64,000 bases of DNA, taken from Saccharopolyspora thermophila. Lineage in GTDB: Bacteria; Actinomycetota; Actinomycetes; Mycobacteriales; Pseudonocardiaceae. The stretch covers positions 434,001-498,000 of the forward strand of contig NZ_BMMT01000002.1 of NCBI RefSeq assembly GCF_014646075.1, written 5' to 3'. The position numbers and the translations under genes were made by a program. The notes under the pieces were generated by a model. The model ran no database searches. It was not told where the DNA came from and saw only the letters and a program-made list of their open reading frames with translations. Positions 30,043 through 42,195 of this stretch are shown here, one piece after another; the first letter of the stretch is position 1, and each line of letters opens with the position of its first letter.

Positions 30043-30232
30043 GGTCTCCCCGGAGTCATTGGCCTGAGAGTTTCACCACTCGCGACGGGTGGCTTGCACC
30101 GTGGGCGAGAAGCGCGTGCTTCTGCTTTTCTCCGTGTTCGCCTGGTGCCGTGCGGTGACGGTGCCTGAGAGTTTGCTGGGGAGTGTTGCTCCTTCGGCGC
30201 CCCGCCCGCAGCGAGGTCTCTCCCGCACGACG
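30043..30232 (-). promoter_or_regulatory. Tandem glycine riboswitch
   Basis: Two aptamers are readable on the minus strand. Aptamer I: GCGGGAGAGACC, GCCGAAGGAGCAA and AACTCTCAGGCACC (about 30229-30150). Aptamer II: CGGAGAAAAGC, CCCACGGTGCAAGCC and AAACTCTCAGGCC (about 30140-30045). The repeated CTCTCAGG cores separated by a short linker are diagnostic. It precedes gcvT-glyA and should switch the operon on when glycine is high. Confidence 0.93.
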
Positions 30233-30317
30233 TCATCGGCGCGGTCTTCAGTTGTGCGATCTGAACCTACGGACGGGGGCGGACCGAAGTCAACCGACCG
30301 GGGCCCGCGGGCGACGG

Positions 30318-39061: not shown

Positions 39062-40267
<1,206 letters not shown>

Positions 40268-40698: not shown

Positions 40699-41601
40699 TC
40701 AGTTGCGGACCGGTTCGCCGGTCTCCTCGACCTCGTCGAACTCGCGCCGCTCGGCCAGCACCACCCGGACCGTGTAGGCAATCGCGGCCACCCAGGCCAC
40801 CACGATCGCGGCGTAGATGATCGTCGACGACGGGGCGGGCAGGTCGATGTTCTTGATCAGCGTCCGGGCGTTGGTCAGCACGATCAGCCCGCCCGCGCCG
40901 ACGCCGATCAGCCGCATCGGCACGATCCGTACCAGGTACGCCGCCAGCGGCGCCGCGATGACCCCGCCGAGCAGCAGCGCGCCCACCATGGTCCAGGACA
41001 GCTCCTGGTGCGCCAGCGAGGTCAGAAAGCCCAGGCTGGCCGCGAACGCGATCAGAAACTCGCTGGTGTCGACCGAGCCGATGACCTTGCGTGGTTCCAC
41101 CTTGCCGGTGCTCAGCAGCGTCGGCGTCGCCACCGGGCCCCAGCCGCCACCACCGGTGGCGTCGACGAACCCGGCGACCAGGCCGAGCGGTGCGAGCAGC
41201 TTGGGGCTCACGCCGGTGAGCTGCCGGCGGCGCAGCGGGCGGACGGCGAACTTCAGCAGCACGTAGATCCCGAGCACCAGCAGGATCGTGGACATCCACG
41301 GCTCGGCGGCCTCGGTGGAGAGGTTGCTCAGCACGGTGGCGCCGAGGAAGGCGCCGACCGCGCCCGGCACGCCGAGGGTCAGCACCACCTTCCAGTCCAC
41401 ATTGCCGAACCGCCAGTGCGACAGGCCCGATGCCACCGACGTGCCGAGCTCCGCGAGGTGCACGGACGCCGACGCGAGCGCGGGGCTGAGCCCTGCGGTG
41501 AGCAGGATCGTCGTCGAGGTCACCCCGTAGGCCATGCCGAGGGAGCCGTCGACCAACTGCGCGACGAAACCACCGATCGCGAAGATCAGGAATGCTTGCA
41601 C
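40699..41601 (-). CDS. TauE/SafE-family sulfite exporter
   Basis: 300 residues, about eight hydrophobic helices. Family signatures: IGGFVAQLVDGSLGMAYGVT in helix 1, HLAELGTSVASGLSHWRFGN, GLVAGFVDATGGGGWGPVAT and a second-half GALLLGGVIAAPLAAYLV. The start at ATG 41601 lies about 105 bases after a short leader-peptide gene with the conserved motif of cysteine-attenuated sulfur operons, so expression probably responds to cysteine. TauE/SafE proteins export sulfite or sulfonates. Its closeness to a sulfite-consuming SQD1-type enzyme suggests linked sulfite management. Convergent with that gene. Confidence 0.9.
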   Translation of the reverse strand: MQAFLIFAIGGFVAQLVDGSLGMAYGVTSTTILLTAGLSPALASASVHLAELGTSVASGLSHWRFGNVDWKVVLTLGVPGAVGAFLGATVLSNLSTEAAEPWMSTILLVLGIYVLLKFAVRPLRRRQLTGVSPKLLAPLGLVAGFVDATGGGGWGPVATPTLLSTGKVEPRKVIGSVDTSEFLIAFAASLGFLTSLAHQELSWTMVGALLLGGVIAAPLAAYLVRIVPMRLIGVGAGGLIVLTNARTLIKNIDLPAPSSTIIYAAIVVAWVAAIAYTVRVVLAERREFDEVEETGEPVRN

Positions 41602-41706
41602 GATGTCTCCGTTAGGTGCGGGGTGCCTGGACGGGCGCGCGGCGGAACGGGCGCGAGCAGCGCCTGCCGTGATGAGAGGGAAGTCGAGCAGAGGTGGAAG
41701 CGGGGC

Positions 41707-41799
41707 CTACCGCGTGCACCGACACCCTGCGGAGGTGACGCGGCGCAGGTCTACGTGGAGGCGCTGCACCAGCAGCCGCCACTGATCACCAGGCGTCAT
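41707..41799 (-). CDS. Cysteine-type attenuator leader peptide (30 aa)
   Basis: A 30-codon frame from ATG 41799 to TAG 41707. The middle reads LLVQRLHVDLRRVTSAGC and the end RCTR, matching the actinobacterial leader peptides that precede sulfur-assimilation genes (pattern R-x-HVDL-x-RV-x-SA-x-C). In that class, slow translation at the late cysteine codons when cysteine is scarce changes downstream expression. It is 105 bases upstream of the TauE/SafE gene. No ribosome site precedes the ATG, as is common for leaderless leader peptides. Too short for routine gene finding. Confidence 0.82.
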   Translation of the reverse strand: MTPGDQWRLLVQRLHVDLRRVTSAGCRCTR

Positions 41800-41809
41800 G
41801 CGGGACAGT

Positions 41810-42195
41810 GAATCAGATCAGGCCGTCGTGTGGCACCGGCTCCCAGACTGCGGGAGGGATGACCGCGGTGTGTGCCCAAGACCACTTTCGGCGGTACTCG
41901 ATCTCGTGAGCAGTGTTCCACCGACCGCCGCCTGATCTGTCCGGTGTGGACTCGCCGCCGGCCGGATGCGGTGCGCGGTGGTCGCAACCGGGTTCGTCCT
42001 GGCGTGATCGATTCACGCCAGACCTGCGAAAACGCCGATTTCGGCGCTGGTTGGGCAGCTGGGGTTGCGGTCCTGTCGCAGCCGCGCACGAACACGCGTG
42101 CGGCAGACCTCGCCGTTATCAGAAGGTCATCTTCTTTGATTTCGAAGAGTAATCAGTTGGGCAGTGCCAGTGCGCTTTGATCTCCTCAAACGGGT
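41810..42195. other. Intergenic region with a possible coding remnant
   Basis: Mostly without recognised genes. On the minus strand a frame ending at 41813 encodes EIEYRRKWSWAHTAVIPPAV then WEPVPHDGLI, which looks protein-like and may be the C-terminal remnant of a lost gene; I do not recognise the family. The stretch 42100-42180 is clearly less GC-rich than its surroundings. Confidence 0.35.

Follow-up and report, generated by a model that had tools for sequence, protein, structure and literature searches.

A 30-codon open reading frame upstream of a TauE/SafE-family permease gene in Saccharopolyspora thermophila encodes a leader peptide, and comparative evidence lends good support to its cysteine-type control of the downstream gene (tauE). 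This assignment draws on the family to which the peptide belongs, its conservation, the Cys codon retained in it, and the sulfur genes that lie behind paralogous leaders. The locus, whose leader status is well supported, adds a member to a known type of regulator. The novelty lies more in two features that extend beyond it: the use of the rare codon UGU for the regulatory Cys, and a second leader family designated FWPSRR.

In the window, by which we mean the entire 64,000-nucleotide stretch that was analyzed, the leader occupies positions 41707–41799 on the minus strand, begins with ATG, ends with TAG, and encodes the peptide MTPGDQWRLLVQRLHVDLRRVTSAGCRCTR. A sequence-only reading had marked this 30-residue frame and placed it 105 bases before TauE/SafE; the ORF is confirmed, and the interval to the GTG start of tauE (41602–41706, minus strand) measures exactly 105 nt. 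The permease gene (40699–41601, minus strand; 300 amino acids) matches PF01925 with 137.1 bits (E 9.8e-40; Pfam gathering cut-off 32.6). The spacer is C-rich (C 0.49, G 0.23) and may serve as a Rho loading site. The ribosome-binding region of tauE (41599–41620, minus strand) comprises GCACC, CGGAG (41607–41611), and the GTG start. Within the leader, the TGT codon for the regulatory Cys26 lies at 41722–41724 (minus strand), where all 18 members of the genus set carry the same codon. It falls inside a candidate anti-RBS strand (41716–41742, minus strand) that folding and codon conservation suggest and that contains CTCCG (41730–41734) and GGGTGT (41722–41727).

A block conserved in the genus suggests a candidate promoter, TGCCAC-N17-TTCACT (41807–41835, minus strand), positioned 7 nt ahead of the leader ATG; a scan with the consensus promoter did not pick it up. 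Because no SD precedes the leader ATG, the mRNA is probably leaderless and would start at or adjoining the leader AUG. Directly upstream of the candidate -35, the strongly conserved block CCCGCACTCTGAGAG (41840–41860, minus strand) is a possible regulator site. At the leader-tauE locus, we found neither an intrinsic terminator nor a U-tract, and Rfam recognized no known RNA family. Elsewhere in the window, a tandem glycine riboswitch (RF00504, 63.8 and 38.3 bits) occupies 30043–30235 on the minus strand.

The suggestion that the frame carries the core of a leader peptide is borne out by a profile search: the peptide scores 28.5 bits (E 8e-7) against NF042934, an NCBIfam model named putative leader peptide (cis_reg_atten) with a cut-off of 27. 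The bare stretch reaches 25.8 bits in a DNA-frame search, below that cut-off, so the leader is best classed by sequence as a borderline-scoring member. It shows the second mark of the family, a short reading frame that precedes a sulfur gene, insofar as TauE has the sulfur role ascribed to it. The leader shares the core HVDL..V.SA.C with NF042934, but in the window and genus leaders the usual HVDLC has R or L in place of its first Cys. We rejected assignment to the Cys-rich Ms4527A leaders (NF042936), against which the peptide scores 24.9 bits with a cut-off of 45. The run of Cys codons of that type is absent; C26 alone is invariant and C28 is missing in many members of the genus, so the sequence does not read as a poly-cysteine leader.

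Comparison with known systems clarifies this placement. Poly-cysteine attenuators of the Ms4527A type in mycobacteria are described as leaderless sORFs (PMC13236596, citing Canestrari et al. 2020; PMC9094748). Like these, the window leader is a short ORF before a sulfur-related gene, has a probable leaderless start, and is proposed here to attenuate translation through SD unmasking. It differs in having one invariant Cys (UGU) within a conserved peptide core, whereas the Ms4527A type has a Cys run. As in the classical trp, ilv, and leu attenuators, control codons in the leader peptide would sense their own amino acid, but unlike those systems, the window locus yielded no intrinsic terminator or U-tract. 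A literature search found no paper on a leader at tauE, an absence that constitutes weak evidence.

Conservation extends throughout the close relatives of the window locus. All 18 close Saccharopolyspora orthologues of tauE, that of the window and others 83–91% identical, have the leader 38–117 nt ahead of the gene, with the consensus MTxGDQWRLLxQRLHVDLxRVTSAxCR. Two diverged Saccharopolyspora tauE genes (59%) have no such leader upstream. An HMM of leader cores, run on 80 TauE loci of named genomes, matches 24 of the upstream regions and none of the antisense, downstream, or shuffled controls. The matches come from Saccharopolyspora, whose leader was part of the training set, and from Actinomycetospora, Modestobacter, Gordonia, and Kribbella, which were left out of it. 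The NF042934 match, the conservation in 18 of 18 orthologues, and the clean controls thus confirm that the leader ORF is real and not a chance occurrence. Many of the remaining TauE loci lack a leader HMM match. Some of the leaderless loci carry palindrome-like, operator-like elements near the promoter (TTGTCGACCAAGTYGATAGGAG; TTCCTATTAAACTGATCGGAA), which are possibly sites for Rrf2-type regulators. Paralogous HVDL leaders precede sulfur genes, among them those for sulfite reductase, serine acetyltransferase, APS kinase, sulfonate transport, and cysteine dioxygenase, all assigned by sequence reading except cysteine dioxygenase.

The leader is constrained at the level of codons as well as amino acids. 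The run ACC TCC GCA (G/C)GG TGT CGG is nearly invariant in the genus leaders (one has TCA). When the comparison is limited to codons whose amino acid is invariant, 15 of 21 leader codons are the same throughout the 18 species versus 69 of 201 in tauE (Fisher p 0.0015). In a sample of 79 HVDL family members from about 20 genomes, which are related so that counts are not independent events, automatic counting of the Cys codon gave TGT at the regulatory Cys in 63 of 78 members versus 9 of 163 in the downstream genes. Third-position GC falls to 0.19 at this codon, compared with 0.64–0.97 at the 14 preceding codons. Reading of the rows revealed ten leaders as true TGC exceptions, all in a single class, YVDLRRV(S/A)SALC, located before sulfite-reductase-type genes; the remaining five TGC counts refer to an earlier Cys, and the conserved Cys of those leaders is TGT. 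Rare UGU is the regulatory Cys codon in most HVDL leaders. The Ser at position -3 is encoded by AGC, TCC, or TCG, which indicates that the peptide sequence itself is also under selection. These patterns suggest that the sensor need not be a run of Cys codons and can instead be one rare Cys codon set in a conserved peptide.

A second family of leaders displays the same codon preference. Pseudonocardia tauE genes have no HVDL leader; 87–299 nt upstream of them lies another conserved uORF that ends in LERFWPSRRxxAFDE(F/L)CR (family consensus LExFWPSRRxxAFDEFCR). Among the genomes covered by profile searches, FWPSRR leaders occur in 31 of 150 from the window's family, 34 of 200 from its order, and 34 of 297 from its class, and in one order-level genus the leader again precedes tauE. 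Genes found behind FWPSRR leaders encode TauE, a PF13379 binding protein, beta-carbonic anhydrase, APS kinase, a Cys/Met PLP enzyme, a PF03601 protein, and cysteine dioxygenase. In all 61 sequences, a set partly used to train the profile, the Cys of these leaders is encoded by TGT, versus 6 of 57 downstream, and other codons vary synonymously. FWPSRR leaders match no NCBIfam leader model and no Pfam or Rfam family, and a literature search with the motif plus other terms found no paper, which is again weak evidence. These peptides have the appearance of a second leader family that has gone unnoticed and that could help to locate sulfur genes across many genomes of actinomycetes. We regard it as an even call whether actinomycetes have at least two leader families, HVDL (catalogued) and FWPSRR (uncatalogued), that act as single-codon cysteine sensors through a rare, wobble-read UGU and take each other's place before the same genes, including tauE; within that same evenly balanced reading, the common rule would be a conserved nascent chain that ends at UGU with no Cys run. 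Cysteine dioxygenase-like genes stand behind leaders of both types. Since the dioxygenase degrades cysteine, induction by cysteine shortage would act in the wrong direction there.

The model we favor, with reasonable though not strong confidence, is a cysteine-responsive attenuator in which a starved ribosome stalls at UGU and frees the tauE RBS. We infer that transcription starts at or near the leader AUG and that ribosomes translate the 30 codons of the resulting mRNA. When Cys-tRNA is ample, the ribosome would clear the single conserved UGU and depart the leader. The vacated 3' codons (CUCCG-CA-GGGUGU and their neighbors) would then pair with the SD and GUG of tauE and repress its translation. 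When Cys-tRNA is scarce, the ribosome would stall at UGU, cover the anti-RBS strand, and leave the tauE RBS free. The net effect would be to switch on the permease under cysteine shortage. An account of M. smegmatis cysteine genes describes SD unmasking (PMC13236596, citing Canestrari et al. 2020).

Folding analysis gives moderate support to an RBS-occluding attenuator at leader-tauE. In every member of the genus, the 3' codons of the leader are able to pair with the SD and start of tauE in a long, imperfect duplex. In 14 of 18 loci, which are not independent of each other, the native codons make the RBS costlier to open than do 57 or more of 60 synonymous recodings, and a simulated ribosome at Cys26 cuts this cost in most genus loci. 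Where Gly is replaced by Arg (GGG to CGG), the anti-RBS strand pairs differently, with GACAUCGUGC. Outside the genus, the effect is clear in Kribbella (2 of 2 loci) and Modestobacter (1 of 4). It is not seen on folding of Actinomycetospora and Gordonia leaders, and leader-RBS pairing is not seen at FWPSRR-tauE loci; occlusion of the RBS by the leader as a universal mechanism is rejected on these grounds. The window locus is among the weakest in the genus in this respect. Folded at full length, its RBS is not occluded (4.5 against 5.0 in the controls) and gives 4.5 both with and without a stalled ribosome, a negative result for which we rejected that fold as proof of occlusion. The effect appears only when the first 15 codons are omitted (10.0 to 7.1 kcal/mol) or, to a modest degree, in a duplex test (synonymous fraction 0.08).

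The lack of an intrinsic terminator at the locus also fits Rho-dependent attenuation, previously proposed for mycobacterial cys leaders (PMC1262725), in which translation or stalling on the leader sets Rho loading on the C-rich spacer, termination occurs before tauE, and RBS pairing has a minor part or none. All 18 loci have C-rich, G-poor spacers that otherwise vary in sequence and length, but this C-richness is a value for the spacers alone. Moreover, Rho leaves unexplained why the codons of the leader at UGU and ahead of it fit the RBS more closely than synonymous ones do, and we consider it unlikely. Slightly less doubtful, and compatible with the attenuator model, is a nascent-chain arrest sensor: the stall would be caused by the RLHVDLxRVxSAxC peptide and not by Cys-tRNA shortage alone, with cysteine or some other sulfur signal inside the ribosomal tunnel as a possible trigger. 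Conservation of the peptide far beyond the Cys while codons vary, as for the Ser noted above, is what such a sensor would show, and the second leader family behaves alike with a different conserved peptide. Against it, the strict UGU preference points to tRNA sensing at the codon level. The strong conservation of the peptide within the genus could also reflect a small functional protein that acts in trans instead of a cis leader, but many short paralogues precede different sulfur genes, the rare UGU is confined to one site, and the tail is variable, which renders this explanation very improbable.

If the attenuator model is correct, a TauE-type permease takes its place in a ribosome-controlled sulfur regulon of actinomycetes. 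The earlier proposal that the leader confers cysteine-type control on this gene is well supported, whereas the label "sulfite exporter" goes beyond the evidence, in that the permease family is broad; sulfite export that responds to cysteine supply is plausible. Wider TSUP permeases include sulfite exporters as well as the C. glutamicum sulfate permease CysZ (PMC5840216). No solved relative was found by sequence, and "sulfite exporter" is a family name only. Were TauE induced when cysteine runs short, import by the permease would fit just as well, as would a safety valve for sulfite during sulfonate scavenging. The gene context is one of sulfur metabolism. Convergent with tauE lies a UDP-sulfoquinovose synthase-like gene (39098–40267, plus strand) that scores 472.8 bits, below the equivalog cut-off of 575, and such a neighbor is present in the flanking sequence covered for 12 of 18 genus loci; UDP-sulfoquinovose synthase uses sulfite. 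A stretch of 7.2 kb in another genome of the window's family contains tauE together with the genes for a PF13379 binding protein and a PF03601 protein, all three preceded by FWPSRR-type leaders of their own.
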